Shown one piece after another: positions 19,476 through 56,343 of a DNA stretch of 64,000 nt. The stretch comes from Ascidia mentula. Its lineage: Eukaryota; Chordata; Ascidiacea; Phlebobranchia; Ascidiidae. The stretch covers positions 868,001 through 932,000 of the forward strand of contig OX387198.1 of the NCBI GenBank assembly GCA_947561715.1, written 5' to 3'. The stretch's first letter is position 1, and every line of letters begins with the position of its first letter. Made by a program: the position numbers and the translations under genes. The notes under the pieces are model-generated. The model was not told the origin of the DNA, made no database searches, and saw only the letters and a list, made by a program, of their open reading frames with translations.

Positions 19476-19483
19476 GTTTTAAA
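19476..19483 (+). repeat. Left target-site duplication GTTTTAAA
   Basis: Eight bases identical to 56336-56343, immediately outside the inverted termini of the giant element. An 8-bp duplication fits KDZ, hAT and some Mutator-like transposases. A perfect match indicates that both ends belong to one insertion and that it is not very old or has been conserved by chance. Confidence 0.88.
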
Positions 19484-19760
19484 ACCGTCGTCATTTCGGC
19501 GAAATAAAAAAAAAATTCTACGAAAATTATTTTACGCATGAGTGAATACAGCTCAATTCAATATTCTATGAATTCAAAACATGTTTTATACGTGATTCAG
19601 AAATGCAACCAACTAAAAATCCGCAAAAAAAAACAATACAATCAGAGGAAATAAACAAAAAATTGATAAAATATTGAAAAATTTTACAAATGCAAGCAAC
19701 ATGGACCAGATCCATACCAATTTTACATACAAAAAGCAACTGTTAATGTAAGCCATAAAT
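19484..19760 (+). repeat. Left terminal inverted repeat, unique subterminal part
   Basis: Starts ACCGTCGTCATTTCGGCG, then A-rich sequence. Blocks shared in order with the inverted right end include TTACGCAT, AACATGTTT, GAAAGCAACATG-like sequence, CAATTTTACATAC and AAAGCAACTGTTAATGTAAG. Presumed transposase recognition region. No ORF. Confidence 0.88.
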
Positions 19761-22700
19761 CAATCACTTTCCGGGACATAGAATTTCCTATGAATTTGCA
19801 CAGGGCTTGCCTAGAGCATGCAGGTGAAGGTGATCTAAGTTAAAATACCAACCGGCTCCACAATTCCCAGCGAAATGGACTCAAACAAAGGTCATTGTGT
19901 GTGACGGCATACAGGCTGTTTGTAACCGTAATGGCGTAAGAGACATCTTGACATACAAGAGAAAATTCAAACACTTTCCGGGACATAGGAATTCCTATAA
20001 TTTTGCACAGGGCTTGCCTAGAGCATGCAGGTGAAGGTGATATAAGTTAAAATACCAACCGGCTCCACAATTCCCAGCGAAATGGACTCAAAGGCAGGTC
20101 ATTGTGTGTGACGGCATACAGGCTGCTTGTGAGCGCAATGGCGGCAGAGACATCTTGACAAAAAGCGAAAATTCAAACACTTTCCGGGCCATAGGATTTC
20201 CTATAATTTTGCACAGGGCTTGCCTAGAGCATGCAGGTGAAGGTGATATAAGTTAAAATACCAACCGGCTCCACAATTCCCAGCGAAATGGACTCAAACA
20301 AAGGTCATTGTGTGTGACGGCATACAGGCTGCTTGTGAGCGCAATGGCGGCAGAGACATCTTGACACAAAACGAAAATTCAAACACTTTCCGGGCCATAG
20401 GATTTCCTATAATTTTGCACAGGGCTTGCCTAGAGCATGCAGGTGAAGGTGATATAAGTTAAAATACCAACCGGCTCCACAATTCCCAGCGAAATGGACT
20501 CAAACAAAGGTCATTGTGTGTGACGGCATAAAGGCTGCTTGTGAGCGCAATGGCGTCAGAGACATCTTGACAAAAAGCGAAAATTCAAACACTTTCCGGG
20601 CCATAGGATTTCCTATAATTTTGCACAGGGCTTGCCTAGAGCATGCAGGTGAAGGTGATATAAGTTAAAATACCAACTGGCTCCACAATTCCCAGCGAAA
20701 TGGACTCAAACAAAGGTCATTGTGTGTGACGGCATACAGGCTGCTTGTGAGCGCAATGGCGGCAGAGACATCTTGACAAAAAGCGAAAATTCAAACACTT
20801 TCCGGGACATAGGATTTCCTATAATTTTGCACAGGGCTTGCCTAGAGCATGCAGGTGAAGGTGATATAAGTTAAAATACCAACCGGCTCCACAATTCCCA
20901 GCGAAATGGACTCAAACAAAGGTCATTGTGTGTGACGGCATACTGGCTGCTTGTGAGCGCAATGGCGGCAGAGACATCTTGACAAAAAGCGAAAATTCAA
21001 ACACTTTCCGGGCCATAGGATTTCCTATAATTTTGCACCGGGCTTGCCTAGAGCATGCAGGTGAAGGTGATATAAGTTAAAATACCAACCGGCTCCACAA
21101 TTCCCAGCGAAATGGACTCAAACAGAGGTCATTGTGTGTGACGACATAGAGGCTTCTTGTGAGCGCTATGGCGGCAGAGACATCTTGACAAAAAGCGAAA
21201 ATTCAAACACTTTCCGGGCCATAGGATTTCCTATAATTTTGCACAGGGCTTGCCTAGAGCATACAGGTGAAGGTGATATAAGTTAAAATACCAACCGGCT
21301 CCACAATTCCCAGCGAAATGGACTCAAAGGCAGGTCATTGTGTGTGACGGCATACAGGCTGCTTGTGAGCGCAATGGCGGCAGAGACATCTTGACAAAAA
21401 GCGAAAATTCAAACACTTTCCGGGCCATAGGATTTCCTATAATTTTGCACAGGGCTTGCCTAGAGCATACAGGTGAAGGTGATATAAGTTAAAATACCAA
21501 CCGGCTCCACAATTCCCAGCGAAATGGACTCAAACAAAGGTCATTGTGTGTGACGGCATACTGGCTGCTTGTGAGCACAATGGCGTCAGAGACATCTTGA
21601 CAAAACGCGAAAATTCAAACACTTTCCGGGCCATAGGATTTCCTATAATTTTGCACCGGGCTTGCCTAGAGCATGCAGGTGAAGGTGATATAAGTTAAAA
21701 TACCAACCGGCTCCACAATTCCCAGCGAAATGGACTCAAACAGAGGTCATTGTGTGTGACGACATAGAGGCTTCTTGTGAGCGCTATGGCGGCAGAGACA
21801 TCTTGACAAAAAGCGAAAATTCAAACACTTTCCGGCCCATAGGATTTCCTATAATTTTGCACAGGGCTTGCCTAGAGCATACAGGTGAAGGTGATATAAG
21901 TTAAAATACCAACCGGCTCCACAATTCCCAGCGAAATGGACTCAAACAAAGGTCATTGTGTGTGACGGCATACAGGCCGCTTGTGAGCGCAATGGCGGCA
22001 GAGACATCTTGACAAAAAGCGAAAATTCAAACACTTTCCGGGCCATAGGATTTCCTATAATTTTGCACAGGGCTTGCCTAGAGCATACAGGTGAAGGTGA
22101 TATAAGTTAAAATACCAACCGGCTCCACAATTCCCAGCGAAATGGACTCAAACAAAGGTCATTGTGTGTGACGGCATACAGGCTGCTTGTGAGCGCAATG
22201 GCGGCAGAGACATCTTGACAAAAAGCGAAAATTCAAACACTTTCCGGGACATAGGATTTCCTATAATTTTGCACAGGGCTTGCCTAGAGCATGCAGGTGA
22301 AGGTGATATAAGTTAAAATACCAACCGGCTCCACAATTCCCAGCGAAATGGACTCAAACAAAGGTCATTGTGTGTGACGGCATACTGGCTGCTTGTGAGC
22401 ACAATGGCGTCAGAGACATCTTGACAAAACGCGAAAATTCAAACACTTTCCGGGCCATAGGATTTCCTATAATTTTGCACCGGGCTTGCCTAGAGCATGC
22501 AGGTGAAGGTGATATAAGTTAAAATACCAACCGGCTCCACAATTCCCAGCGAAATGGACTCAAACAGAGGTCATTGTGTGTGACGACATAGAGGCTTCTT
22601 GTGAGCGCTATGGCGGCAGAGACATCTTGACAAAAAGCGAAAATTCAAACACTTTCCGGGCCATAGGATTTCCTATAATTTTGCACAGGGCTTGCCTAGA

Positions 22701-24850
22701 GCATACAGGTGAAGGTGATATAAGTTAAAATACCAACCGGCTCCACAATTCCCAGCGAAATGGATTCAATGGCAGGTTATTGTGTGTGACGGCATAGAGG
22801 CTGCTTGTGAGCGCAATGGCGGCAGAGACATCTTGACAAAAAGCGAAAATTCAAACACTTTCCGGGCCATAGGATTTCCTATAATTTTGCACAGGGCTTG
22901 CCTAGAGCATACAGGTGAAGGTGATATAAGTTAAAATACCAACTGGCTCCACAATTCCCAGCGAAATGGACTCAAAGGCAGGTCATTGTGTGTGACGGCA
23001 TACAGGCTGCTTGTGAGCGCAATGGCGGCAGAGACATCTTGACAAAAAGCGAAAATTCAAACACTTTCCGGGCCATAGGATTTCCTATAATTTTGCACAG
23101 GGCTTGCCTAGAGCATGCAGGTGAAGGTGATATAAGTTAAAATACCAACCGGCTCCACAATTCCCAGCGAAATGGACTCAAACAAAGGTCATTGTGTGTA
23201 AAGGCATACTGGCTGCTTGTGAGCACAATGGCGTCAGGGACATCTTGACAAAACGCGAAAATTCAAACACTTTCCGGGCCATAGGATTTCCTATAATTTT
23301 GCACCGGGCTTGCCTAGAGCATGCAGGTGAAGGTGATATAAGTTAAAATACCAACCGGCTCCACAATTCCCAGCGAAATGGACTCAAACAGAGGCCATTG
23401 TGTGTGACGACATAGAGGCTTCTTGTGAGCGCAATGGCGGCAGAGACATCTTGACAAAAAGCGAAAATTCAAACACTTTCCGGGACATAGGATTTCCTAT
23501 AATTTTGCACAGGGCTTGCCTAGAGCATACAGGTGAAGGTGATATAAGTTAAAATACCAACCGGCTCCACAATTCCCAGCGAAATGGACTCAAAGGCAGG
23601 TCATTGTGTGTGACGGCATACAGGCTGCTTGTAAGCGCAATGGCGGCAGAGACATCTTGACAAAAAGCGAAAATTCAAACACTTTCCGGGCCATAGGATT
23701 TCCTATAATTTTGCACAGGGCTTGCCTAGAGCATACAGGTGAATGTGATCAAAGTTAAAATACCAACCGGCTCCACAATTCCCAGCGAAATGGATTCAAT
23801 GGCAGGTTATTGTGTGTGACGGCATAGAGGCTGCTTGTGAGCGCAATGGCGGCAGAGACATCTTGACACAAAGCGAAAATTCAAACACTTTCCGGGCCAT
23901 AGGATTTCCTATAATTTTGCACAGGGCTTGCCTAGAGCATACAGGTGAAGGTGATATAAGTTAAAATACCAACCGGCTCCACAATTCCCAGCGAAATAGA
24001 TTCAATAACAGGTTATTGTGTGTGACGGCATACAGACTGTTTGTAACCGTAATGGCGTAAGAGACATCTTGACATATAAGAGAAAATTCAAACACTTTCC
24101 GGGACATAGGAATTCCTATAATTTTGCACAGGGCTTGCCTAGAGCATACAGGTGAAGGTGATATAAGTTAAAATACCAACCGGCTCCACAATTCCCAGCG
24201 AAATGGACTCAAACAAAGGTCATTGTGTGTGACGGCATACAGGCTGCTTGTGAGCGCAATGGCGGCAGAGACATCTTGACACAAAACGAAAATTCAAACA
24301 CTTTCCGGGCCATAGGATTTCCTATAATTTTGCACAGGGCTTGCCTAGAGCATGCAGGTGAAGGTGATATAAGTTAAAATACCAACCGGCTCCACAATTC
24401 CCAGCGAAATGGACTCAAACAAAGGTCATTGTGTGTGACGGCATAGAGGCTGCTTGTGAGCGCAATGGCGGCAGAGACATCTTGACAAAAAGCGAAAATT
24501 CAAACACTTTCCGGGCCATAGGATTTCCTATAATTTTGCACAGGGCTTGCCTAGAGCATGCAGGTGAAGGTGATATAAGTTAAAATACCAACCGGCTCCA
24601 CAATTCCCAGCGAAATAGATTCAATAACAGGTTATTGTGTGTGACGGCATACAGACTGTTTGTAACCGTAATGGCGTAAGAGACATCTTGACATATAAGC
24701 GAAAATTCAAACACTTTCCGGGACATAGGATTTCCTATAATTTTGCAAAGGGCTTGCCTAGAGCATACAGGTGAAGGTGATATAAGTTAAAATACCAACC
24801 GGCTCCACAATTCCCAGCGATATGGCAGGTCATTGAATGTGACGGTATAA
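19761..24850 (+). repeat. Left satellite array, 206-bp unit, about 25 copies
   Basis: Unit length is about 206 bp (first periods 207 and 206), read here from CACTTTCCGGG through CTTGCCTAGAGCATGCAGG, CCAACCGGCTCCACAATTCC and CATTGTGTGTGACGGCAT to GAGACATCTTGAC. Copies are mostly well over 90% alike. Variant units recur in blocks (for example GACATAGAGGCTTCTTGTG at three or four places), showing multi-unit duplications. The array edges on both sides are more diverged (TGTTTGTAACCGTAATGGCG type), as expected if homogenisation is strongest in the middle. It forms the left arm of the giant element. Confidence 0.95.
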
Positions 24851-25219: not shown

Positions 25220-28200
25220 TTAAACAAAAATCGATGGTTTGGAACCGACCCTTCTACACGTTTCCTCGTATGTACAGCTACTCGTACTCATTAAATAACA
25301 AATGATGGCCTCAAAGTACAAAACGTTGTTTAGGAAAAAATTTACATCAAGTATTTTGTCCATCACCATTTCACTCAACATGCTTCCTTCCACAATCAAA
25401 CCTGGTTTCAAATCTCGGCCGCAAAATGATTCTCGGAAAACCTGACTACCAACAAGTCGTTGACGCACGAGACGTCGACAAAACGAATATTCCACGAATC
25501 GCATTATATTGCTCATTTCATCCTGGGAAATTGTAAGGGGGGAAAAATTTTTGTTGTACTTTATCAACATATTTTTTTTACCATGGTAATATAAACATAG
25601 GCGGTAACATTCTGGTAAATTTTTTGCTTGTTGAAATGATATTAATAAAGCCGACTTTATTTTGTTGAAAATAAGGTCATATGATTGTTTTCTAGCAGAG
25701 TTTAATTCAGTAACATTCGAAATTACAATATTTCTTCCATCTATGTATTGCTCCAAAACAATATTTGTTTGAATAATGCGATCCGTAGACTTCGCTGCCG
25801 ACGCGTTGAAACATCGTGGCTTGCGACGGACAAAAATCTTAGGTTGGGCTGGGGTGCTGGATGAATCAACACCGGTCTTAACTTTTTTGTAAAATAAAAT
25901 GCAACAACCCGTAAGTATCCTTTCTTTAACACTATTCCATGCGACATGTTTTACAGTGTCGTCATTAAATTCTGTCAAATGAAATTTGTTGAATTTGTAC
26001 GTCAAATAATGGCCAGAGTTAACACTGGATCCAATATGTACAACAACAGACATAAGCTTAAACGAAACTCCTTGTTCAAAACGCAACAATTCATCTGGGA
26101 CTATACGTTTATTACTTTTCTTGCCACTTATATTCCTAAAAACAACAATGCATAATACGTCTGTTGGACTTTTGAGCTCACTGCTAATCTTCTTCTCTGT
26201 ATCCAAATTACAGTGGGAACAATGGCTGATGGCAACGTTGTGAAATTCAGTTTCACAATATGTACTGAGATTACTGTTGTCCGGGATGTGATCGAACAAT
26301 GGCAACGTAAGTACAGATTGCTCATTCTGAAATTTCGCCTCGTTGCCACATGTCTTGCAAGTTTTTGATGTATGATACTTAAACGACCAGTTTAAACCAC
26401 AACTCTTTATTACGGAAGCAAAATTAAAAAGCATTAAAAATTCAGTGGGGTCCTGCTGCTCATTTAAATTAAAATTAAGGTGACTACAGACGTCTTCGAC
26501 CAATTTCAAGTATGATGGGGAATCAACGTAGTTCTGTGCAAGATGACAAACTAAGTGACCAATCCTACTTTCTATCGTGGCTTTACTGGGAAAAACACAA
26601 GGGCGATCTAACAAACATTGAAGAGCTTGTAACACAGAATTTAACCAACAGTTATTATATAAATTTGGAAGACCGGGCAAAACTAGCTTGTTTTTAACAA
26701 TCCAAGTATTTAATTTATCACTGCAACTGATCGATTCCTGGACAAGCGCAAACACAATCCAAATACGATATCGCGCAACGTCGAACTCAATCTTATCAAT
26801 CCCAATTATGTTGTTTGCAATTTTTTCTACGGTGAAACATACACACAAACCGCAACTAGACAGATCACTCTGATATACAAGTGAGTCGGATTTAAAAGTA
26901 AGGTTACGACCGGTTATTGAAACAAAAATCGGAATTAAATATTTTCTTACTAAAGGCGTGACTTCTTTTCGCGGACTTCCAGTAGAATCATAAAGAACCA
27001 TTTCGTTCTCAAAATGTTTAAACCACAAAATCACAAAATGCCCATTAAAAAGAACTGGAATAAAAACATGCTCACACAAACGTTCGTTATGAAACATGCC
27101 ATGAAGTGCTTTGCGAATGTTTTTGAATTGTTTGCCCTGCAAAATTTCTCCCGCTGTAATAGTTGACACAAACCCAAAGGCGCCAGTCATACGTAAATTA
27201 CAATAACGGAGTGTTCTGGAAATATAACAGTCTACAACGTTGTCCGTTAACCAACCAATTGTTAAGTCACTGTGTGTATTCGCCGGGTTTTGAGTTAAAG
27301 CACAATAAGTTTTCCCACGAGGTCTACTGCAAAGGGAACACAAATCTAACCATGAAACTGACTGACGACAGGGCATGACGAGGGCGGTGTCAAAAATTGA
27401 AGTTGGGGTAAAAGGTATATGATGCCAAACGAAATCTGCAATTTTTTTACAGTCAATAAAACTATCATGGAATTTTGGACAGACAGAGAAAAATGGCATT
27501 GTCGGGGTGCACTTAAGTGGTAACATTGGTTGTGGGGAAAGTGATACTTTGTTTTCAAATTTTACACGTTTACACATAATTTCCGATGAGTAAAAACTGG
27601 TTTTGTTTCTTTTCCTCTTTTTGAACTTTGACTCCACAACCAATGTACGTTTGGCGGTTTTAATATTATTTGCTTTTAAAGGGGATTTGTTCGGTTGTTC
27701 ACGAAAGCTCAACATAGAATCTGCAAAAAGTTTTTGTAAAACTTTAATAGCATCATAATATTTGGAGACAAAATCGTCTATACGAGCTATTCTTTTTCCA
27801 TTGAATATATTTGTTTTTAAATCACCGAAATGCTCCTCAATTATTCCTTGGGTTTTGTTATTGCGTAAAACTGTTTGGTGTACACAACTTTTCATGACGT
27901 TACAGTCTGTGGAATAAGTGTAAAACATTTTCGCCTGCTCGTCACTAGTTTTGCCGTCGTGAACATGCCGTGACAAACCCCCAAGCATTATCTTTGATGT
28001 TGCACATATTCTACTTAAAACCACTTCAATTACACGTTCACAAAAACTGGGATTGCAATAAAGATTGTTTTTTATTTTTGTTTCGTTTTGTTTGTACACA
28101 TGTGAATTTAAAAATTCATCTAATTTGCGTTTGTATCGACAACAAAATGGAGATTGTTTTTCCTGTAATTTGTCAGTATGTTTATTACAAAAAGTGTAGT

Positions 28201-28557
28201 CCGTATCCTCTTTCACGCCATTGTCGTCGTCAGTCATATTGATACTGAATTTACCAGAAATTACCATTGATGTTAGCCGATTAAAATGTGTCTGAAGTAA
28301 TGAGGATGATGTTTCGCAGTTAGTCAACACAATAAAACTTTCCACAGCAATGTCTAAGTCTGCAATCGTCTCACAATTAAAAAAAACATTGAGCCAAAAC
28401 AAGTAAGTTTTTGACAGTTTGGAACTTTTGCAATGTTTGCTGCACAACGACTTCGCTGCTTTCATTGCATGGCTATAACAATTGTGAACAACAGTTTTTT
28501 TTAGGTCGCCGTAATTTGGAACTCCTGTCGCAATGCGGTAACAACGGATATGGTGGC
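25220..28557 (-). CDS. Transposase exon 2: DDE end, Ulp1 (C48) protease, USP (C19) deubiquitinase
   Basis: Second exon of the element's transposase, residues about 1219-2330. Order: a C2H-like motif HNCYSHAMKA (about 1245); catalytic Glu in GIIEEHFGDLK (about 1460) with downstream FVSKYYDAI; a basic linker; a Ulp1-type cysteine protease (about 1650-1800) with WLTDNVV, His in NGHFVILWF, Asp in LYDSTG, Gln in VYQSD and Cys in SSCGLCVC; then a USP domain (about 1847-2112) with Cys box LPNLYNNCWLNSVLQAL, QQDPTEFL, zinc pairs CKTC and CSHC, His box SGHYLTY, FNDD and CILFYK. A 220-residue tail of unknown fold follows. All expected catalytic residues of both proteases are visible. There is no usable start codon upstream (only TTG after a stop), so this must be spliced. 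The proposed acceptor is TATAG|GCCACC at 28557/28558. Confidence 0.85.
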
Positions 28558-28914
28558 CTATACATTTTTCCATAAGAAAAAAAAATTCGTTTCGAATTTC
28601 GTTTTCCCGAAACAAATTTTGTTTTGAAATAATCAATTTTGTTTCCAAAAGCAAAATTCGAAACAGAGTTCAAAACGAATTTGAGAAAAGGTGGTTATGG
28701 TCAAAAACGAAATTCGAAACAAATTTTTTGGAAAAACTTTTTTCAAAAAGTGAATATCGCTTGATGGAAACAAAGAGCTGATATTTAATATAATGACGTC
28801 AGTATTCAAAAACATATTTTTGTAAACAAATTTTGTTAACAAATCAAAGACCGTTTTGAAATGCCCAAATTTTGTCGTATCAAAAATGAAACTGTGAAAA
28901 CAAAATTTGTTTTC

Positions 28915-31900
28915 GAAACAAAATTCGTTTACAAATGCCTTTAGTACTTTACTCACTATGTTGTAAACAGTGGGAAACAAATTATGTTTTCGAAACAAAA
29001 TTCGTTTACAAATGCTTTTGGATCGTTACTATCTATGTTGCCCATAGCGGAAAACAAAATTCGTTTCCGAAACAAAATTCGTTTACAAATGCCTTTGGAT
29101 CGTTACTATCTATGTTGACCGAAGCGGAAACAAAATTTGTTTTCGAAACAAAATTCGTTCACAAATGCCTTTGGATTGTTACTATCTATGTTGCCCATAG
29201 CAGGAAACAAAATTTGTTTTCGAAACAAAATTAGTTTACAAATGCCTTTGGATAGTTACTATCTATATTGCCCATAGCGGGAAACAAAATTCGTTTTCGG
29301 AACAAAATTCGTTTACAAATGCCTTTGGTTCGTTACTCACCATGATGTCTATACCGGGAAACAAAATTCGTTTACAAATGCCTTTGGATCGTTACTATCT
29401 ATGTTGCCCATAGCGGAAACAAAATTTCTTTTCGAAACAAAATTCGTTTACAAATGCCTTTGGATCGTTACTATCTATGTTGCCCATAGCGGAAACAAAA
29501 TTTCTTTTCGAAACAAAATTCGTTTACAAATGCCTTTGTATCGTTACTATCTATGTTGCCCATAGCGGGAAACAAAATTCGTTTTCGAAACAAAATTCGT
29601 TTACAAATGCCTTTGGATCGTTACTATCTATGTTGCACATAGCGGGAAACAAAATTCGTTTTCGAAACAAAATTCGTTTACAAATGCCTTTGTATCGTTA
29701 CTATCTATGTTGCCCATAGCAGGAAACAAAATTTGTTTTCGAAACAAAATTCGTTTACAAATGCCTTTGGTTCGTTACTATCTATGTTGCCCATAGCGGG
29801 AAACAAAATTCGTTTTCGAAACAAAATTCGTTCACAAATGCCTTTGTGTCGTTACTATCTATGTTGCACATAGCGGGAAACAAAATTTGTTTTCGAAACA
29901 AAATTCGTTTACAAATGCCTTTGGTTCGTTACTATCTATGTTGCCCATAACGGGAAACAAAATTCGTTTTCGAAACAAAATTCGTTTACAAATGCCTTTT
30001 GTATCGTTACTATCTATGTTGCCCAAAGCGGGAAACAAAATTCGTTTTCGAAACAAAATTCGTTTACAAATGCCTTTGGATCGTTACTATCTATGTTGCC
30101 CATAGCAGGAAACACAATTTGTTTTCGAAACAAAATTCGTTTACAAATGCCTTTGGTTCGTTACTCACCATGATGTATATACCGGGAAACAAAAATTCGT
30201 TTTCGAAACTAATTTCGTTTTCAAATGCTTTGGTTCGTTACTCACCATGTTGTACATAGTGGGAAACATAATTTGTTTTCGAAACAAAATTCGTTTACAA
30301 ATGCCTTTGGATCGTTACTATCTATGTTGCACATAGCAGGAAACAAAATTCGTTTTCGAAACAAAATTCGTTTACAAATGCCTTTGGATCGTTGCTATCT
30401 ATGTTGCCCATAGCGGGAAACAAAATTCGTTTTCGAAACAAAATTCGTTTACAAATGCTTTTGGATCGTTACTATCTATGTTGCCCATAGCGGGAAACAA
30501 AATTCGTTTTCGAAACAAAATTCGTTTACAAATGCCTTTGGATCGTTACTATCAATGTTGCCCATAGCGGGAAACAAAATTCGTTTTCGAAACAAAATTC
30601 GTTTACAAATGCCTTTGGATCGTTACTATCTATGTTGCCCATAGCAGGAAACATAATTTGTTTTCGAAACAAAATTCGTTTACAAATGCCTTTAGCACTT
30701 TACTGACTATGTTGTAAACAGTGGGAAACAAATTATGTTTTCGAAACAAAATTCGTTTACAAATGCTTTTGGATCGTTACTATCTATGTTGCCCATAGCG
30801 GAAAACAAAATTCGTTTCCGAAACAAAATTCGTTTACAAATGCCTTTGGATCGTTACTATCTATGTTGCCCGAAGCGGAAACAAAATTTGTTTTCGAAAC
30901 AAAATTCGTTCACAAATGCCTTTGGATCGTTACTATCTATGTTGCCCATAGCAGGAAACAAAATTTGTTTTCGAAACAAAATTAGTTTACAAATGCCTTT
31001 GGATAGTTACTATCTATATTGCCCATAGCGGGAAACAAAATTTGTTTTCGGAACAAAATTAGTTTACAAATGCCTTTGGTTCGTTACTCACCATGATGTC
31101 TATACCGGGAAACAAAATTCGTTTACAAATGCCTTTGGATCGTTACTATCTATGTTGCCCATAGCGGAAACAAAATTTGTTTTCGAAACAAAATTCGTTT
31201 ACAAATGCCTTTGGATCGTTGCTATCTATGTTGCCCATAGCGGGAAACAAAATTCGTTTTCGAAACAAAATTCGTTTACAAATGCCTTTGGATCGTTGCT
31301 ATCTATGTTGCCCATAGCGGGAAACAAAATTCGTTTTCGAAACAAAATTCGTTTACAAATGCTTTTGGATCGTTACTATCTATGTTGCCCATAGCGGGAA
31401 ACAAAATTCGTTTTCGAAATAAAATTCGTTTACAAATGCCTTTGGATCGTTACTATCAATGTTGCCCATAGCGGGAAACAAAATTCGTTTTCGAAACAAA
31501 ATTCGTTTACAAATGCCTTTGGATCGTTACTATCTATGTTGCCCATAGCAGGAAACATAATTTGTTTTCGAAACAAAATTCGTTTTCAAATGACTTTGAT
31601 CCGTTACTCACCATGTTGTACAAAGTGGGAAACATTATTTGTTTTCGCAACAAAATTCGTTTATAAATGCCTTTGGTTCGTTACTCACCATGATGTCTAT
31701 ACCGGGAAACAAAAATTCGTTTTCGAAATTAATTTCGTTTACAAATGCTTTGGTTCGTTACTCACCATGTTGTACATAGTGGGAAACATAATTTGTTTTC
31801 GAAACAAAATTCGTTTACAAATGCTTTGGATCGTCACTATCTATGTTGTACATAGTGGGAAACATAATTTGTTTCCGAAACAAAATTCGTTTTCAAAGGA

Positions 31901-31960
31901 TTTTGATCCGTTACTCACTATAGTGACCATAGTGGGAAACCAAATTTGTATTTGTGTTTA
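28915..31960 (+). repeat. Satellite A array, 77-bp unit, about 39 copies
   Basis: Unit of 76-77 bp: GGATCGTTACTATCTATGTT, then GCCCATAGCGGGAAACAAAA, then two copies of an AAACAAAATTCG motif and TTTACAAATGCCTTT. A 1.75-kb block is duplicated: the marker ACTTTACTSACTATGTTGTA at about 28946 returns at 30698, and ACTCACCATGATGTCTATAC at about 29335 returns at 31087. Short frames inside are not genes. Flanking 28570-28900 is a diverged version of the same AAATTCGTTT motif. Confidence 0.93.
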
Positions 31961-32039
31961 AAACTTCACGTCAATTGACTTCAAAATAAAGCAAAGGTAG
32001 GCGGCCAATCATGCCTTAGCAGTTTTCACTGCTCGTTTC

Positions 32040-32634
32040 GTACTGGCATCTAGTATTTGTGTGCAAAACTTCAAGTCCCCTGATATTAAAATGTTCAAAT
32101 CACAGGCGGGCAACTCTCAAAATTACATAATTCCGCCGAACCTTAGCCACCGTAGTGCCAAACATGCGTTTTCGGTCGCGAATAAAAAACTAAAGGACAT
32201 AGGCCAATTAGGTTTTTATTGTTCGTTTTGTACTGGCATCTAATATTTGTGTGCAAAATTTCAAGTCGCTTGATATAAAATTGTTCAAATCACAGGCGGG
32301 CAACTCTCAAAATTACGTAATTCCGCCGAAACTTAGCCACCATAGAGCCAAACATGCGTTTTCCTTCCCGAATAAAAAACTAAAAGACATAGGCCAATTA
32401 GGTTTTCACTGTTCGTTTTCTACTGGCATTTACTATTTGTGTGCAAAATTTCAAGTCGCTTGATATAAAAATGTTCAAATCGCAGGCGGGAAGATCTCCA
32501 AATCAGTTAATTCCGCCGAACCTTAGCCAGCATCATAGTTTGAGCATGCGTTGTTGTTCACCAACAAATTTCCAAAGGACATAGGCTAATTTGGTTTCCA
32601 CCGCCCACTTTGTATTGGCATCTAGTATTTGTGT
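32040..32634 (+). repeat. Satellite B, direct-orientation block, about 3 copies of 190 bp
   Basis: Three diverged units reading GGCATCTAGTATTTGTGTGC, TTCAAGTCGCTTGATAT, CAGGCGGGCAACTCTC and ACTAAAGGACATAGGCCAAT. They are the reverse complement of the main array that follows. The orientation switch lies near 32,634, where CTAGTATTTGTGT meets CCTTTCGAATTTTATTGG. Confidence 0.9.
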
Positions 32635-41340: not shown

Positions 41341-42187
41341 AAGTGACTTTGAACTTCACACACAAATTACAGATTCTGTTTCCACTATGAACAACATATT
41401 TGTGTCGGACTAATGGTATTACAACACAGTGATTAACGGATCAACGACATTTGTAATCGAATTTTGTTTCAAAAACAAATTTTGTTTCCCACTATGTACA
41501 ACACAGCGATTAACGGTTTAAATGCATTTATAAACGAATTTTGTTTCGAAAACAAATTTTGTTTCCCACTCTATACAACACAGTGATTAACGGATCAAAG
41601 GCATTTGTAATCGAATTTTGTTTCGAAAACAAATTTTAATTCATGCTATGTTCATGATGTTTTTGTGCAACTTTTTGCATTTTTGAATAGATAAAATCAG
41701 TTATCACAGTATATATGGACGTAAGTTATACTTACTGAGGCGTTTCAACTTTAAATTAAGAAACGTTTTGCTTCAACATATGCCCTACTCACACATATTT
41801 CGCACTGCGTTTGTTTCGTGTGATAGTGGATGAAAATCTAGTTTGTTTTGGATTAATTCGTATGACTTGTTCCAACAGATTAGTTTGACAAATTAGTTGA
41901 AAAAGATTTCTGATTTAGGAACAATCCTTAACCCCGGCCCCATTATCTCACGTTTGGACCAACATTGTCCAATTTATCCGATAGTGTTGATTTAAATAGC
42001 TCATTTGACACCTGTATAACCTAGCATTTTTATTCCATAACATGTTACAGCACGTTTGCGTAACGCTTCTAATTTCAAGTATGGCCCTCTACCCCCATCA
42101 TGTGGCCAGTCGTCGTCAAGAATTTTGTTCACAAAATTCGTTCACAAAATTCGTTTACAAAATTTCAATTTTGTTTCCCACCATTAC
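41341..42187 (-). repeat. Right intron flank with inverted satellite A remnants
   Basis: About 41440-41640 holds nearly three inverted satellite A units (CGAATTTTGTTTCGAAAACA, TTTTGTTTCCCACT, ACGGATCAAAGGCATTTGTA). About 41,650-42,110 is single-copy AT-rich sequence in which I see no gene. From 42118 to 42187 further A-type motifs (ACAAAATTCGTTCACAAAATTCG) run up to the splice donor. Confidence 0.8.
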
Positions 42188-45100: not shown

Positions 45101-45842
45101 CACTACTCTTTGCTTCATTGTCGACTCGGCCAAGGGAGCCAACAGCTTTAGCCGACGAGTCACGAACGGCTTTAGCAGCCCCACTGCTCTTTGCTTCATT
45201 GTCGACTCGGCCATGGGAGCCAACAGCTTTAGCCGACGAGTCACGAACGGCTTTAGCAGTCCCACTGCTCTTTGCTTCATTGTCGACTCGGCCATGGGAG
45301 CCAACAGCTTTAGCCGACGAGTCACGAACGGCTTTAGCAGTCCCACTGCTCTTTGCTTCATTGTCGACTCGGCCAAGGGAGCCAACAGCTTTAGCCGACG
45401 AGTCACGAACGGCTTTAGCAGTCCCACTGCTCTTTGCTTCATTGTCGACTCGGCCATGGGAGCCAACAGCTTTAGCCGACGAGTCACGAACGGCTTTAGC
45501 AGTCCCACTACTCTTTGCTTCATTGTCGACTCGGCCAAGGGAGCCAACAGCTTTAGCCGACGAGTCACGAACGGCTTTAGCAGTCCCACTGCTCTTTGCT
45601 TCATTGTCGACTCGGCCATGGGAGCCAACAGCTTTAGCCGACGAGTCACGAACGGCTTTAGCAGTCCCACTGCTCTTTGCTTCATTGTCGACTCGGCCAT
45701 GGGAGCCAACAGCTTTAGCCGACGAGTCACGAACGGCTTTAGCAGTCCCACTGCTCTTTGCTTCATTGTCGACTCGGCCAAGGGAGCCAACAGCTTTAGC
45801 CGACGAGTCACGAACGGCTTCCTTCATGTTCTTTAGCCGCAT
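42188..45842 (-). CDS. Transposase exon 1: 27-aa repeats, PHD finger, GCM/FLYWCH-like zinc region, first two catalytic Asp
   Basis: First exon, residues 1-1218 of a predicted 2,330 from ATG at 45840-45842. Residues about 8-412 are 15 copies of a 27-residue repeat. A basic region follows (MYKTRDGKIKVICRYLD, near residue 510). The PHD finger is at about 678-735: FCVCNMPYDG, CETC, HWFHPKC, WKCSNLVC (C4HC3). A GCM/FLYWCH-like Cys/His region, LYCAHKRCEDCMCG to GKRNHKRGC, is at about 954-1000; such modules precede Mutator-like cores. Catalytic Asp 1 lies in VYFDATGSV (about 1118) and Asp 2 in LIIDGSMAMWNAV (about 1192). A possible 50-nt intron at 44501-44550 (GAG|GTATTT to TATGCAG|TA) would shift the frame into a stop, so I keep the read-through; translation could instead start at the Met near 44,313. 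Confidence 0.82.
44595..45820 (-). repeat. 81-bp in-frame coding minisatellite, about 15 copies
   Basis: Unit of exactly 81 bp (landmarks ACGAACGGCTTTAGCAG, TTTGCTTCATTGTCGACTCG, GGAGCCAACAGCTTTAGCC on the plus strand). In the transposase frame it encodes KAVRDSSAKAVGS, then L/HGRVDNEAKSSGTA, a Lys/Arg, Ser and Ala-rich, disordered-looking 27-mer. Copies differ by few bases; two main variants (SLGRV and SHGRV) are interspersed. Because 81 is divisible by three, other frames on both strands also stay open (472 codons on the plus strand), which are taken as shadows. Confidence 0.88.
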
Positions 45843-46054: not shown

Positions 46055-47028
46055 TTAGATTATATGCTGCATTGAAATTATTTTGGTCATTTTTATCTCA
46101 CCAACTGAATCTTCCACAGCCAGAAGAGTATGGACATGTTCTTCAAGACTGTCCATGTAGTGGCGCAGCCCTACGTCTGAGAGATGGAGTTTATCGCTCC
46201 AGTTCCCTCGATCGTTGGAGATGTTAAAATCCAAGAAGCTGAGCCCATACTCCTGAGCAAGGTTGCACAGTACCCGGTTGACTTGTGGAACGCAGTCTTT
46301 GTGAAAACCAGATTGTTTCAAGATTCCAGCCATCACAATCTTAAACGAACATCATAAAAAAATGACTTATACCATTGAATATATTTCTAACCAAAAGGGG
46401 GAGTACGTTTATGTTACGCAAACAGACAAAAAATACTGGGGCCGGTATTCCTATTATTTGCTACGTGTTTAACAACTAAACTAACGTTGCTTACACAACA
46501 ATAAACCAACCTGGGACTGCGGGTACGTTTGTTGGCACACCTCGATCAGCTGTTGAAAATCAGTCCCGATACTGTTATGGTGGTGATCAGCATGCCGAGA
46601 GACCAGGTCGTTCGTACCAAGAGCCAGAATGATAAAATCAACTGACTCGAACCTTTTCCCGTACATGAGTTCCTCCGCCCCATGGTTCAGTGTTCCCCCT
46701 GGAATAGAAATGGCACTTAAAGTAAAAAGTTTACTTATCGCCGATACCACCTGGGGGCAGACAATGTTCCTCCCGTTGCTATCGGTCACCAACAACACGG
46801 AAGGAAGTGGTGACCCCTCAGCAAGGAGGTAACATGTCTGCTTCCCGGACACTCCAACTTCATACTTCTTGGGCGGCGTTCTTCTTCCCATCGTCAATTG
46901 ATCTTTGCTCCTCAAACACAGGACTGTCGTGGCTTGTTGAGAAATGTATTGGATACTGAGGTCGTCGGATATGGATGATGTCTCGGATAGCAATGGATGA
47001 TAATAGAGCGTTTCGCAAGTATAGTTTT
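46055..47028 (-). CDS. SGNH/GDSL-type hydrolase carried by the transposon (5' exon not located)
   Basis: Two exons, 46511-47028 and 46055-46339, joined in phase 0 (TACCCGCAGTCCCAG|GTTGGT to TTTAAG|ATTGTG) give 267 residues. All four SGNH blocks are visible: Ser in LLVTDSNGRN (block I), Gly in SIPGGTLNHG (block II), Asn in LALGTNDLV (block III) and Asp-His in DKLHLSDVG (block V), so an esterase/lipase-like triad is intact. An acceptor TTTTGCAG opens the first exon in phase 1, so at least one more 5' exon lies upstream in 47030-47690; I could not place it. SGNH domains occur in several animal transposons with unknown role. It sits inside the right arm, just upstream of the transposase. Confidence 0.78.
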
Positions 47029-47689: not shown

Positions 47690-50600
47690 CCGCTTTCAGA
47701 CAATTTTGCTGGGAGTTGTGGAGCCGGTTGGTATTTTAACTTATATCACCTTCACCTGTGTGCTCTAGGCAAGCCCTGTGCAAAATTATAGGAAATCCTA
47801 TGTCCCGGAAAGTGTTTGAATTTTCGCTTTTTGTCAAGATGTCTCTGCCGCCATTGGGCTCACAAGCAGCCTCTATGCCGTCACACACAATGACCTGCCT
47901 TTGAGTCCATTTCGCTGGGAATTGTGGAGCCGGTTGGTATTTTTACTTATATCACCTTCACCTGTATGCTCTAGGCAAGCCCTGTGCAAAATTATAGGAT
48001 ATCCTATGGCCCGGAAAGTGTTTGAATTTTCGCTTTTGCCAAGATGTCTCTGCCGCCATTGGGTTCACAAGCAGCCTGTATGCCGTCACACACAATGACC
48101 TTTGTTTGAGTCCATTTCGCTGGGAATTGTGGAGCCGGTTGGTATTTTAACTTATATCACCTTCACCTGCATGCTCTAGGCAAGCCCTGTGCAAAATTAT
48201 AGGAAATCCTATGGCCCGGAAAGTGTTTGAATTTTCGCTTTTTGTCAAGATGTCTCTGCCGCCATTGGGCTCACAAGCAGCCTCTATGCCGTCACACACA
48301 ATGACCTGCCTTTGAGTCCATTTCGCTGGGAATTGTGGAGCCGGTTGGTATTTTTACTTATATCACCTTCACCTGTATGCTCTAGGCAAGCCCTGTGCAA
48401 AATTATAGGATATCCTATGGCCCGGAAAGTGTTTGAATTTTCGCTTTTGTCAAGATGTCTCTGCCGCCATTGGGTTCACAAGCAGCCTGTATGCCGTCAC
48501 ACACAATGACCTTTGTTTGAGTCCATTTCGCTGGGAATTGTGGAGCCGGTTGGTATTTTAACTTATATCACCTTCACCTGCATGCTCTAGGCAAGCCCTG
48601 TGCAAAATTATAGGAAATCCTAAGGCCCGGAAAGTGTTTGAATTTTCGCTTTTTGTCAAGATGTCTCTGCCGCCATTGCGCTCACAAGCAGCCTCTATGC
48701 CGTCACACACAATGACCTGCCTTTGAGTCCATTTCGCTGGGAATTGTGGAGCCGGTTGGTATTTTTACTTATATCACCTTCACCTGTATGCTCTAGGCAA
48801 GCCCTGTGCAAAATTATAGGATATCCTATGGCCCGGAAAGTGTTTGAATTTTCGCTTTTGTCAAGATGTCTCTGCCGCCATTGGGTTCACAAGCAGCCTG
48901 TATGCCGTCACACACAATGACCTTTGTTTGAGTCCATTTCGCTGGGAATTGTGGAGCCGGTTGGTATTTTAACTTATATCACCTTCACCTGCATGCTCTA
49001 GGCAAGCCCTGTGCAAAATTATAGGAAATCCTTTGGCCCGGAAAGTGTTTGAATTTTCGCTTTTTGTCAAGATGTCTCTGCCGCCATTGCGCTCACAAGC
49101 AGCCTCTATGCCGTCACACACAATGACCTGCCTTTGAGTCCATTTTGCTGGGAATTGTGGAGCCGGTTGGTATTTTAACTTATATCACCTTCACCTGCAT
49201 GCTCAAGGCAAGCCCTGTGCAAAATTATAGGAAATCCTATGGCCCGGAAAGTGTTTGAATTTTCGCTTTTTTTCAAGATGTCTCTGCCGCCATTGGGCTC
49301 ACAAGCAGCCTCTATGCCGTCACACACAATGACCTGCCTTTGAGTCCATTTCGCTGGGAATTGTGGAGCCGGTTGGTATTTTTACTTATATCACCTTCAC
49401 CTGCATGCTCTAGGCAAGCCCTGTGCAAAATTATAGGAAATCCTAAGGCCCGGAAAGTGTTTGAATTTTCGTTTTGTGTCAAGATGTCTCTGCCGCCATT
49501 GCGCTCACAAGCAGCCTCTATGCCGTCACACACAATAACCTGCCATTGAATCCATTTCGCTGGGAATTGTGGAGCCGGTTGGTATTTTAACTTATATCAC
49601 CTTCACCTGCATGCTCTAGGCAAGCCCTGTGCAAAATTATAGGAAATCCTATGGCCCGGAAAGTGTTTGAATTTTCGCTTTTTGTCAAGATGTCTCTGCC
49701 GCCATTGCGCTCACAAGCAGCCTCTATGCCGTCACACACAATGACCTGCCTTTGAGTCCATTTTGCTGGGAATTGTGGAGCCGGTTGGTATTTTAACTTA
49801 TATCACCTTCACCTGCATGCTCAAGGCAAGCCCTGTGCAAAATTATAGGAAATCCTATGGCCCGGAAAGTGTTTGAATTTTCGATTTTTTTCAAGATGTC
49901 TCTGCCGCCATTGGGCTCACAAGCAGCCTCTATGCCGTCACACACAATGACCTGCCTTTGAGTCCATTTCGCTGGGAATTGTGGAGCCGGTTGGTATTTT
50001 TACTTATATCACCTTCACCTGCATGCTCTAGGCAAGCCCTGTGCAAAATTATAGGAAATCCTAAGGCCCGGAAAGTGTTTGAATTTTCGTTTTGTGTCAA
50101 GATGTCTCTGCCGCCATTGCGCTCACAAGCAGCCTCTATGCCGTCACACACAATAACCTGCCATTGAATCCATTTCGCTGGGAATTGTGGAGCCGGTTGG
50201 TATTTTAACTTATATCACCTTCACCTGCATGCTCTAGGCAAGCCCTGTGCAAAATTATAGGAAATCCTATGGCCCGGAAAGTGTTTGAATTTTCGCTTTT
50301 TGTCAAGATGTCTCTGCCGCCATTGCGCTCACAAGCAGCCTCTATGCCGTCACACACAATGACCTGCCTTTGAGTCCATTTTGCTGGGAATTGTGGAGCC
50401 GGTTGGTATTTTAACTTATATCACCTTCACCTGCATGCTCAAGGCAAGCCCTGTGCAAAATTATAGGAAATCCTATGGCCCGGAAAGTGTTTGAATTTTC
50501 GCTTTTTGTCAAGATGTCTCTGCCGCCATTGGGCTCACAAGCAGCCTCTATGCCGTCACACACAATGACCTGCCTTTGAGTCCATTTCGCTGGGAATTGT

Positions 50601-53600
50601 GGAGCCGGTTGGTATTTTTACTTATATCACCTTCACCTGCATGCTCTAGGCAAGCCCTGTGCAAAATTATAGGAAATCCTAAGGCCCGGAAAGTGTTTGA
50701 ATTTTCGTTTTGTGTCAAGATGTCTCTGCCGCCATTGCGCTCACAAGCAGCCTCTATGCCGTCACACACAATAACCTGCCATTGAATCCATTTCGCTGGG
50801 AATTGTGGAGCCGGTTGGTATTTTAACTTATATCACCTTCACCTGCATGCTCCAGGCAAGCCCTGTGCAAAATTATAGGATATCCTATGGCCCGGAAAGT
50901 GTTTGAATTTTCGCTTTTGTCAAGATGTCTCTGCCGCCATTGGGTTCACAAGCAGCCTGTATGCCGTCACACACAATGACCTTTGTTTGAGTCCATTTCG
51001 CTGGGAATTGTGGAGCCGGTTGGTATTTTAACTTATATCACCTTCACCTGTATGCTCTAGGTAAGCCCTGTGCAAAATTATAGGATATCCTATGGCCCGG
51101 AAAGTGTTTGAATTTTCGCTTTTTGTCAAGATGTCTCTGCCGCCATTGGGTTCACAAGCAGCCTGTATGCCGTCACACACAATGACCTTTGTTTGAGTCC
51201 ATTTCGCTGGGAATTGTGGAGCCGGTTGGTATTTTAACTTATATCACCTTCACCTGTATGCTCTAGGTAAGCCCTGTGCAAAATTATAGGATATCCTATG
51301 GCCCGGAAAGTGTTTGAATTTTCGCTTTTTGTCAAGATGTCTCTGCCGCCATTGGGTTCACAAGCAGCCTCTATGCCGTCACACACAATGACCTGCCTTT
51401 GAGTCCATTTCGCTGGGAATTGTGGAGCCGGTTGGTATTTTTACTTATATCACCTTCACCTGTATGCTCTAGGTAAGCCCTGTGCAAAATTATAGGATAT
51501 CCTATGGCCCGGAAAGTGTTTGAATTTTCGCTTTTTGTCAAGATGTCTCTGCCGCCATTGGGTTCACAAGCAGCCTGTATGCCGTCACACACAATGACCT
51601 TTGTTTGAGTCCATTTCGCTGGGAATTGTGGAGCCGGTTGGTATTTTAACTTATATCACCTTCACCTGCATGCTCTAGGCAAGCCCTGTGCAAAATTATA
51701 GGAAATCCTTTGGCCCGGAAAGTGTTTGAATTTTCGCTTTTTGTCAAGATGTCTCTGCCGCCATTGCGCTCACAAGCAGCCTCTATGCCGTCACACACAA
51801 TGACCTGCCTTTGAGTCCATTTTGCTGGGAATTGTGGAGCCGGTTGGTATTTTAACTTATATTACCTTCACCTGCATGCTCTAGGCAAGCCTTGTGCAAA
51901 ATTATAGGAAATCCCATGGCCCGGAAAGTGTTTGAATTTTCGCTTTTTGTCAAGATGTCTCTGCCGCCATTGCGCTCACAAGCAGCCTGTATGCCGTCAC
52001 ACACAATGACCTTTGTTTGAGTCCATTTCGCTGGGAATTGTGGAGCCGGTTGGTATTTTAACTTATATCACCTTCACCTGCATGCTCTAGGCAAGCCCTG
52101 TGCAAAATTATAGGAAATCCTATGGCCCGGAAAGTGTTTGAATTTTCGTTTTGTGTCAAGATGTCTCTGCCGCCATTGCGCTCACAAGCAGCCTCTATGC
52201 CGTCACACACAATAACCTGCCATTGAATCCATTTCGCTGGGAATTGTGGAGCCGGTTGGTATTTTAACTTATATCACCTTCACCTGCATGCTCTAGGCAA
52301 GCCCTGTGCAAAATTATAGGAAATCCTATGGCCCGGAAAGTGTTTGAATTTTCGCTTTTTGTCAAGATGTCTCTGCCGCCATTGCGCTCACAAGCAGCCT
52401 CTATGCCGTCACACACAATGACCTGCCTTTGAGTCCATTTTGCTGGGAATTGTGGAGCCGGTTGGTATTTTAACTTATATCACCTTCACCTGCATGCTCA
52501 AGGCAAGCCCTGTGCAAAATTATAGGAAATCCTATGGCCCGGAAAGTGTTTGAATTTTCGCTTTTTGTCAAGATGTCTCTGCCGCCATTGGGCTCACAAG
52601 CAGCCTCTATGCCGTCACACACAATGACCTGCCTTTGAGTCCATTTCGCTGGGAATTGTGGAGCCGGTTGGTATTTTTACTTATATCACCTTCACCTGCA
52701 TGCTCTAGGCAAGCCCTGTGCAAAATTATAGGAAATCCTAAGGCCCGGAAAGTGTTTGAATTTTCGTTTTGTGTCAAGATGTCTCTGCCGCCATTGCGCT
52801 CACAAGCAGCCTCTATGCCGTCACACACAATAACCTGCCATTGAATCCATTTCGCTGGGAATTGTGGAGCCGGTTGGTATTTTAACTTATATCACCTTCA
52901 CCTGCATGCTCTAGGCAAGCCCTGTGCAAAATTATAGGAAATCCTATGGCCCGGAAAGTGTTTGAATTTTCGCTTTTTGTCAAGATGTCTCTGCCGCCAT
53001 TGGGCTCACAAGCAGCCTCTATGCCGTCACACACAATGACCTTTGTTTGAGTCCATTTTGCTGGGAATTGTGGAGCCGGTTGGTATTTTAACTTATATCA
53101 CCTTCACCTGCATGCTCTAGGCAAGCCCTGTGCAAAATTATAGGAAATCCTAAGGCCCGGAAAGTGTTTGAATTTTCGCTTTTTGTCAAGATGTCTCTGC
53201 CGCCATTGGGCTCACAAGCAGCCTCTATGCCGTCACACACAATGACCTGCCTTTGAGTCCATTTCGCTGGGAATTGTGGAGCCGGTTGGTATTTTTACTT
53301 ATATCACCTTCACCTGTATGCTCTAGGCAAGCCCTGTGCAAAATTATAGGATATCCTATGGCCCGGAAAGTGTTTGAATTTTCGCTTTTGTCAAGATGTC
53401 TCTGCCGCCATTGGGTTCACAAGCAGCCTGTATGCCGTCACACACAATGACCTTTGTTTGAGTCCATTTCGCTGGGAATTGTGGAGCCGGTTGGTATTTT
53501 AACTTATATCACCTTCACCTGCATGCTCTAGGCAAGCCCTGTGCAAAATTATAGGAAATCCTATGGCCCGGAAAGTGTTTGAATTTTCGCTTTTTGTCAA

Positions 53601-56061
53601 GATGTCTCTGCCGCCATTGGGCTCACAAGCAGCCTCTATGCCGTCACACACAATGACCTGCCTTTGAGTCCATTTCGCTGGGAATTGTGGAGCCGGTTGG
53701 TATTTTTACTTATATCACCTTCACCTGTATGCTCTAGGTAAGCCCTGTGCAAAATTATAGGATATCCTATGGCCCGGAAAGTGTTTGAATTTTCGCTTTT
53801 TGTCAAGATGTCTCTGCCGCCATTGGGTTCACAAGCAGCCTGTATGCCGTCACACACAATGACCTTTGTTTGAGTCCATTTCGCTGGGAATTGTGGAGCC
53901 GGTTGGTATTTTAACTTATATCACCTTCACCTGCATGCTCTAGGCAAGCCCTGTGCAAAATTATAGGAAATCCTTAGGCCCGGAAAGTGTTTGAATTTTC
54001 GCTTTTTGTCAAGATGTCTCTGCCGCCATTGCGCTCACAAGCAGCCTCTATGCCGTCACACACAATGACCTGCCTTTGAGTCCATTTTGCTGGGAATTGT
54101 GGAGCCGGTTGGTATTTTAACTTATATTACCTTCACCTGCATGCTCTAGGCAAGCCTTGTGCAAAATTATAGGAAATCCCATGGCCCGGAAAGTGTTTGA
54201 ATTTTCGCTTTTTGTCAAGATGTCTCTGCCGCCATTGCGCTCACAAGCAGCCTGTATGCCGTCACACACAATGACCTTTGTTTGAGTCCATTTCGCTGGG
54301 AATTGTGGAGCCGGTTGGTATTTTAACTTATATCACCTTCACCTGCATGCTCTAGGCAAGCCCTGTGCAAAATTATAGGAAATCCTATGGCCCGGAAAGT
54401 GTTTGAATTTTCGTTTTGTGTCAAGATGTCTCTGCCGCCATTGCGCTCACAAGCAGCCTCTATGCCGTCACACACAATAACCTGCCATTGAATCCATTTC
54501 GCTGGGAATTGTGGAGCCGGTTGGTATTTTAACTTATATCACCTTCACCTGCATGCTCTAGGCAAGCCCTGTGCAAAATTATAGGAAATCCTATGGCCCG
54601 GAAAGTGTTTGAATTTTCGCTTTTTGTCAAGATGTCTCTGCCGCCATTGGGCTCACAAGCAGCCTCTATGCCGTCACACACAATGACCTTTGTTTGAGTC
54701 CATTTTGCTGGGAATTGTTGAGCCGGTTGGTATTTTAACTTATATCACCTTCACCTGCATGCTCTAGGCAAGCCCTGTGCAAAATTATAGGAAATCCTAA
54801 GGCCCGGAAAGTGTTTGAATTGTCGCTTTTTGTCAAGATGTCTCTGCCGCCATTGGGCTCACAAGCAGCCTCTATGCCGTCACACACAATGACCTGCCTT
54901 TGAGTCCATTTCGCTGGGAATTGTGGAGCCGGTTGGTATTTTTACTTATATCACCTTCACCTGTATGCTCTAGGCAAGCCCTGTGCAAAATTATAGGATA
55001 TCCTATGGCCCGGAAAGTGTTTGAATTTTCGCTTTTGTCAAGATGTCTCTGCCGCCATTGGGTTCACAAGCAGCCTGTATGCCGTCACACACAATGACCT
55101 TTGTTTGAGTCCATTTCGCTGGGAATTGTGGAGCCGGTTGGTATTTTAACTTATATCACCTTCACCTGCATGCTCTAGGCAAGCCCTGTGCAAAATTATA
55201 GGAAATCCTTTGGCCCGGAAAGTGTTTGAATTTTCGCTTTTTGTCAAGATGTCTCTGCCGCCATTGCGCTCACAAGCAGCCTCTATGCCGTCACACACAA
55301 TGACCTGCCTTTGAGTCCATTTTGCTGGGAATTGTGGAGCCGGTTGGTATTTTAACTTATATCACCTTCACCTGCATGCTCAAGGCAAGCCCTGTGCAAA
55401 ATTATAGGAAATCCTATGGCCCGGAAAGTGTTTGAATTTTCGCTTTTTGTCAAGATGTCTCTGCCGCCATTGGGCTCACAAGCAGCCTCTATGCCGTCAC
55501 ACACAATGACCTGCCTTTGAGTCCATTTCGCTGGGAATTGTGGAGCCGGTTGGTATTTTTACTTATATCACCTTCACCTGTATGCTCTAGGCAAGCCCTG
55601 TGCAAAATTATAGGATATCCTATGGCCCGGAAGGTGTTTGAATTTTCGCTTTTTGTCAAGATGTCTCTGCCGCCATTGCGCTCACAAGCAGCCTCTATGC
55701 CGTCACACACAATGACCTGCCTTTGAGTCCATTTTGCTGGGAATTGTGGAGCCGGTTGGTATTTTAACTTATATCACCTTCACCTGCATGCTCAAGGCAA
55801 GCCCTGTGCAAAATTATAGGAAATCCTATGGCCCGGAAAGTGTTTGAATTTTCGCTTTTTGTCAAGATGTCTCTGCCGCCATTGCGCTCACAGGCAGCCT
55901 CTATGCCGTCACACACAATGACCTTTGTTTGAGTCCATTTCGCTGGGAATTGTGGAGCCGGTTGGTATTTTAGCTTATATCACCTTCACCAGCATGCTCT
56001 AGGCAAGCCCTGTGCAAATTGATAGGAAGTTCTATGTCCCGGAAAGTGATTGATTTTTGGC
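47690..56061 (-). repeat. Right satellite array, inverted 206-bp unit, about 41 copies
   Basis: Reverse complement of the left-arm satellite (GTTTGAATTTTCGC, GTCAAGATGTCTCTGCCGCC, GCCGTCACACACAATGACC, GGGAATTGTGGAGCCGG, CCTAGGCAAG-type landmarks). Its inner edge stops at the same unit position as the left array (TGCTGGGAGTTGTGGAGCC against CTCCACAATTCCCAGCG). Higher-order periods are visible: a 411-bp dimer at 47901, 48312 and 48723; a 618-bp trimer at 49340, 49958 and 50576; and a block of about 2.27 kb returning between 51371 and 53636. Frames of 65-73 codons on both strands are by-products. Confidence 0.95.
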
Positions 56062-56335
56062 TTACATTAACAGTTGCTTTTGGTATGTAAAATTGTTATG
56101 GATCAATGTTCATGCCCATGTTGCTTTCGTTTTTAAAAATTTTCGTTACTTTGTCAATTTGTTGTGTTTTTCTTCGGATTGTATTGTTGTTTTTGCAGAT
56201 TATAAGTTGGTCATATTTCTCAATCACTTATGAAACATGTTATAATTTCATACAAATTTGATTTAAGCTGTGTTTACTGATGCGTAAATTAAATTTCGTG
56301 AATTTTTTTTTTTATTTCGCCGAAATGACGACGGT
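56062..56335 (-). repeat. Right terminal inverted repeat, unique subterminal part
   Basis: Ends TTTCGCCGAAATGACGACGG plus T, the inverse of the left end, and aligns with 19484-19760 along its length with scattered substitutions and small gaps. The two ends have diverged noticeably while the terminal 30 bp are nearly identical, as expected for a constrained transposase-binding tip. Confidence 0.88.
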
Positions 56336-56343
56336 GTTTTAAA
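56336..56343 (+). repeat. Right target-site duplication GTTTTAAA
   Basis: Exact copy of 19476-19483, immediately beyond the right terminus. It lies 305 bp before the MALT1 start codon. Confidence 0.88.

Follow-up and report, generated by a model that had tools for sequence, protein, structure and literature searches.

A probable giant foldback-type Mutator-like DDE transposon with a multi-domain gene, carrying a second mobile element, on chromosome 2 of Ascidia mentula

The window analyzed here is a stretch of 64,000 nucleotides from chromosome 2 of the tunicate Ascidia mentula (C2:868001–932000; genome 195.8 Mb), and its features are collected in Table 1. A large element occupies its middle part. 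To the left of it lies a 184-aa open reading frame without a Pfam match, and the left flank itself (19100–19483) matches the genome once, at its own locus. Downstream are an Ig exon above the Pfam cut-off and a caspase-like exon that scores 19.8 bits against a cut-off of 21.4; this pair, the latter exon below its cut-off, fits the MALT1 gene that had been proposed there.

The ends of the element lie exactly where the original prediction had placed them. The octamer GTTTTAAA abuts both tips with no intervening base, and the 18-bp tip ACCGTCGTCATTTCGGCG has no third match in the window at ≤3 mismatches (0.02 expected). By itself the octamer is frequent, matching 18 times across the window (13 expected); a chance duplication was rejected because two random flank octamers agree with a probability of 8e-5. 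The two subterminal ends, predicted to be alignable over about 280 bp, are 85.6% identical across 278 aligned bp, and the predicted inverted satellite arms are present as arrays of a 206-bp unit. Tip to tip the element measures 36,852 bp, including a second, nested element (below) without which the host element would be about 23.2 kb long.

Table 1. Features of the host element and of the element nested in it (window coordinates)
Feature	Position	Strand	Remarks
Left target site duplication (TSD), GTTTTAAA	19476..19483	.	sequence match
Left 18-bp tip, ACCGTCGTCATTTCGGCG	19484..19501	+	sequence match
Left subterminal inverted repeat	19484..19761	+	inner limit approximate
Left arm, 206-bp satellite, 24.6 copies	19760..24825	.	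tandem repeats
Transposase frame, 3′ part	25220..28549	-	
USP (UCH) deubiquitinase-like domain	25889..26674	-	Pfam and alignment; Cys/His/Asp kept
Ulp1/C48-like domain	26830..27256	-	His-Asp-Gln-Cys motif; limits approximate
Third putative catalytic residue (Glu)	27836..27838	-	alignment of members
Nested second element	28550..42187	.	boundaries within a few bases
77-bp satellite, nested element	28898..31949	.	
190-bp satellite, nested element	32022..41304	.	first 2.7 copies inverted
Inverted 77-bp satellite copies, nested element	41420..41637	.	
Transposase frame, 5′ part	42187..45842	-	27-aa repeats, PHD, first two putative catalytic Asp
First two putative catalytic Asp codons	42483-42485, 42261-42263	-	alignment of members
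PHD finger	43665..43799	-	profile match
81-bp coding tandem repeat (27-aa unit)	44595..45820	-	
Second SGNH exon	46096..46339	-	Asp 46193-46195, His 46184-46186
5′ exon region, SGNH/GDSL hydrolase N-part	46484..47014	-	start and exact 3′ splice site predicted
Ser and Asn codons of the first SGNH exon	46778-46780 (Ser), 46610-46612 (Asn)	-	
Right arm, inverted 206-bp satellite, 40.6 copies	47703..56063	.	tandem repeats
Right subterminal inverted repeat	56058..56335	-	inner limit approximate
Right 18-bp tip, ACCGTCGTCATTTCGGCG, inverted	56318..56335	-	sequence match
Right TSD, GTTTTAAA	56336..56343	.	sequence match

The same tips occur elsewhere in the genome. The exact 18-bp tip has 16 matches genome-wide and its reversed control none; at ≤3 mismatches there are 202 matches vs 88 for the reversed control, among them tip subfamilies beginning ACCACC- and ACTGCT-. 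From about half of these 202 matches we drew 25 tip pairs, spanning 1.3–36.9 kb (at least four further pairs lie outside the 25). An exact 8-bp TSD flanks 18 of the 25, a 9-bp duplication (GTTCCATTC) one, and none was found at six. The further copies with other 8-bp duplications that the original prediction suggested seeking thus exist, and such elements, which it called rare in animals, are not so in this genome. The sibling at C52:2781038–2797170 (16,133 bp; TSD TAGTTAAC) is 98.9–99.0% identical to the window copy in the unique parts. Copies on C2 and C73 are 100% identical across the 4,350 bp compared and other copies 99.6%; the near-identity of the former two fits recent movement, and duplication of a larger segment could also explain it. 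The 206-bp satellite matches listed (about 150 of 403) fall within these elements, within fragments of them, or next to either.

We also searched for empty sites with the joined flanks of six TSD-bearing elements, scoring the best 40 of 176 candidates. The flanks of C1:2116572–2130055 match three paralogous sites on C1 (99, 96, and 93%) straight through the insertion point, with a single AAATTTAC in two and one substitution in the octamer of the third; for the five other elements the best 40 of the 176 candidates held no empty site. Given the paired tips, the 8-bp TSDs at other copies, and the empty sites of this relative, the host element is a mobile element of cut-and-paste type, and the claim of a transposon that has its two ends and a target duplication of 8 bp is borne out.

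Three observations concern rearranged or unusual surroundings of such elements. At C69:16394970–16407608 the tips have mirror-image flanks, which points to an element whose surroundings were rearranged by inversion or fold-back. A dispersed repeat adjoins the TSD CATTCCTG: 14 of its 25 listed copies elsewhere end exactly one base before that point, and the rest within 10 bases of it. At C71:14067239–14109687 nine transposase fragments with equal match statistics stand in tandem at a spacing of about 5 kb.

The coding regions had been described as intact-looking, and this is true of each half; the large frame as a whole is broken by the nested insertion of about 13.6 kb. In the uninterrupted C52 sibling it is a single frame of 2,340 aa. 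The order of the parts in the gene is SGNH exons, 27-aa repeats, PHD, DDE, Ulp1/C48-like domain, USP, and a conserved tail. Frames of at least 1,950 aa contain 16 of the 86 matches to the transposase core without a stop in the match, and a 17th has one stop. We aligned the C52 sibling with 14 frames from 30 loci, leaving out the near-identical copies and those that are most broken. Both Asp residues and the Cys and His of a CxxH motif are invariant in all 15 rows, and the Glu in all 13 rows that reach it; this conservation suggests that the Asp/Asp/Glu are the catalytic DDE residues. The PHD finger is present in 13 of the 15 members (profile E 1.4e-9).

The two protease-like domains differ in how directly they are recognized. 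The window protein matches Pfam UCH above the cut-off (2.5e-12), a USP profile gives E 1e-9, and the Cys, His, and Asp are kept in an alignment of four sequences. Pfam C48 has no match in the window protein, so that the C48 label there is putative, drawn from relatives and from the motif. C48 is found above the cut-off in eight relatives, 0.6–1.4 kb downstream of the core (seven from a clade about 29% identical and one 59% identical), and in three of the eight the frame that holds it is exactly as long as the core's; one relative reaches E 0.022, below the cut-off. The Ulp1-like motif is kept, with Asp replaced by Asn in two of five sequences.

When spliced as we predict, the SGNH exons score 40.8 bits against a Pfam cut-off of 32.9, and each exon singly falls below it. 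The first exon has 83 genome matches, many of them directly upstream of cores, including cores of the 29% clade; loci L046–L050 have none nearby among the matches listed. Among solved structures the closest to the SGNH part is PDB 4c1b (E 0.0066), an ORF1-encoded protein which we take to be the zebrafish ZfL2-1 esterase, a retrotransposon protein. The C-terminal part is 71, 47, and 37% identical to three relatives. A protein search with the 1,144-aa 3′ part returned no homologue, an NCBIfam scan was uninformative, and a single-sequence structure prediction of a region other than the DDE core (pLDDT 38) was not used.

Between subfamilies dN/dS is 0.22–0.31 at dS 0.35–1.1 (six comparisons) and falls to 0.13 where dS, at 2.8, is nearly saturated; the C-terminal part gives 0.26 (dS 0.61) and 0.18 (dS 2.4, near saturation). 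Near-identical copies range from 0.26 to 2.0 on few changes. The set comprises 19 rows, with the window row left out and three more, saturated, without a ratio. These ratios indicate that the deubiquitinase and SUMO-protease-like domains are under purifying selection.

With regard to classification, the closest likeness is to foldback elements and to Rehavkus. The kilobase-long satellite arms of the A. mentula element exceed the arms of FB elements, which are smaller. It shares with FB4/FB-NOF, Tetris, and Tm1 inverted arms of variable-number tandem repeats; the published TSDs are 8–10 bp in Tetris and 9 bp in Tm1, and foldback elements are mostly ascribed to Mutator (PMC3169594, PMC4079207). 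Tetris copies, as described in the available text, are without conserved ORFs, whereas the A. mentula element has a multi-domain transposase gene. Rehavkus (Repbase, e.g., Rehavkus-1_TC of Tribolium) is described as having a PHD in its transposase, long ends, and minisatellite or satellite in its inverted termini (PMC6446971, PMC10218199), and the A. mentula element resembles it in all of these, with 206-bp satellite arms in both the window copy and the sibling. It differs in a TSD of 8 bp in 18 of 19 TSD-bearing pairs (9 bp printed for Rehavkus), in its size (16–23 kb without the nested element vs 9.5 kb), in its tunicate host (arthropods and annelids are the printed hosts), and in its SGNH, C48, and USP parts, of which the available text of those two accounts makes no mention.

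Elements combining a C48 protease with a Mutator-type transposase are known as well; the protease of KI-MULE is Ulp1. With its putative C48 the A. mentula element is like KI-MULE, as far as the available text describes it, in this combination and unlike MULEs with Ulp1 in that the C48-like domain lies in the transposase frame, is followed by USP, and comes without a match to the Pfam MULE model (PF10551). That model has no match in the 15 members at E 1, and none of its 70 genome places coincides with the 86 core loci (compared by eye). Elsewhere in the genome PF10551 and PF02902 (C48) matches lie 1.2–1.9 kb apart in the eight pairs compared (e.g., C52:1214102/1216194), and these are probably canonical MULEs with Ulp1 in A. 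mentula. Among database proteins, one (P0002) is co-linear over PHD, DDE, C48-like, and USP-like parts, with the PHD region aligned and a further 1,286 aa at 32% identity; its Pfam PHD is below the cut-off, it matches neither C48 nor UCH, and it ends within the USP-like part. A second (P0003) is 24% identical in the DDE and has Pfam C48 (1.4e-12) and no PHD or UCH match; a profile comparison of its C48 region with ours is weak (probability 1.5), though co-linear. Among the papers listed from the open-licence PMC literature, none describes a deubiquitinase fused with a transposase.

We have not filed the element as Rehavkus, since its TSD departs from the 9 bp in print, and because the Pfam MULE model has no match we have not filed it there either. 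P, hAT, and Zisupton-like elements make 8-bp TSDs, and it is conceivable, if rather unlikely, that the host element belongs to one of these superfamilies or to an undescribed 8-bp-TSD DDE superfamily instead; both the 8-bp TSD and the silent MULE model speak for this. The PHD, the long ends, and the satellite in the inverted ends, all printed marks of Rehavkus (PMC6446971, PMC10218199), argue against it, as do the existence of a distant DDE plus C48 homologue and the presence of C48 beside canonical MULE matches in the same genome. On its sequence features, then, we think that the element would work like a giant foldback or Rehavkus-type Mutator-like element.

The original prediction regarded the whole as one complete 36.85-kb transposon whose insertion accounts for all the satellite DNA of the window. 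This does not hold: the 77- and 190-bp satellites (28898–41637) belong to a second mobile element. Comparison of the window with the C52 sibling gives two aligned blocks that meet at 28551 and 42186 with 11 bp in common, so that an empty site GGTAACAACGGTTATAAT has become GGTAACAACGG-block-ACAACGGTTATAAT in the window copy, and seven siblings (L032–L036, L038, and L045) read through this site in one frame without the block. Of 41 genome matches to the left 348 bp of the block, 28 are nearly full length, and of 35 to its right 548 bp, 30 are full length; together they form 26 co-oriented pairs 10–31 kb apart, the window's included (two match tables compared by reading). Listed matches of the 190-bp satellite (best 7 of 738 candidate places scored) fall within the spans of this second family, with one exception near 18.59 Mb on C2, where a right end lies alongside and no left end is listed for it; most of these satellite places have no listed first-family tip nearby.

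One could still take the 13.6-kb block for the transposon's own part, such as an intron, since everything is enclosed by one tip pair and one TSD pair and since GT...AG at the block edges would yield a frame-keeping product with seven extra residues (by eye). We consider this very improbable, with the block absent from that place in seven siblings, its two ends recurring in 25 other co-oriented pairs, and the listed outside matches of the 190-bp satellite sitting in or beside those other places. The siblings without the block led us to reject a single insertion, and we likewise rejected an intron as the primary reading of the block; candidate splice sites do exist. The nested element of about 13.6 kb thus inserted later, into the transposase frame of the window copy, and with this frame interrupted the window copy probably depends on its siblings.

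The nested element has no ORF of at least 150 aa and, with its inverted 77- and 190-bp arrays, is likewise built like a foldback element. The ends of its family are constant and non-identical (GGATATGGTGGCC... and ...CCACCATTACATAGG; ATGGG in one copy). Seven other copies showed no TSD, and only GG is common to both junctions; in the window copy the right junction (ACAACGG) equals the left flank of the target. Such a pattern is what insertion by a site-specific recombinase (Crypton-like) might leave. A second copy of this family lies inside another tip-bounded element (C71:810486–841778, TSD CAAATTTC), where its left flank has no significant transposase match.

Long tandem arrays are easily misassembled, which is the ground on which the locus might be called an assembly artefact or a chance satellite block joining unrelated contigs. 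This is almost certainly wrong given that the same anatomy and TSDs are repeated at many loci, that a relative has paralogous empty sites, and that the available description of the A. mentula assembly (kaAscMent1.1) reports a QV of 64.9 (PMC11109543).

We therefore hold, with considerable confidence, that the locus is a giant Rehavkus/foldback Mutator-like DDE transposon with a multi-domain gene, lying between two genes of chromosome 2 and later entered by a second element. On its arrival a giant DDE transposon would have duplicated 8 bp of target between the two genes. Its minus-strand gene would encode an SGNH hydrolase, its exons presumably spliced onto the long frame, and then a very long polypeptide running through PHD, DDE, C48-like, USP, and C-terminal regions. 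The transposase may bind the tips and subterminal arms, cut, and insert with an 8-bp stagger, while the PHD finger may read chromatin and the two proteases may strip SUMO and ubiquitin off the transposase or off silencing factors. The satellite-bearing element of about 13.6 kb would then have entered the transposase frame of this copy.

A bolder proposal, which we put forward tentatively and judge somewhat less probable than its opposite, is that these elements form a new lineage of transposons, found in a tunicate and in one or more other organisms, in which one polyprotein joins a transposase to SUMO-type and ubiquitin proteases that counter SUMO/ubiquitin silencing and so keep very large satellite-armed elements active. 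According to the available text of one account, DNA transposition falls significantly above 6 kb of cargo, and artificial constructs of 100–200 kb have been moved (PMC6431247). The A. mentula elements offer a tunicate family of cut-and-paste type with several members of 13–20 kb and larger, in which long frames stay open, some copies are nearly identical, and empty sites give direct evidence, and the joined deubiquitinase and SUMO-protease-like domains make a counter-silencing function of a transposon testable. The nesting, in turn, shows two satellite-bearing mobile families building satellite DNA in a compact genome.
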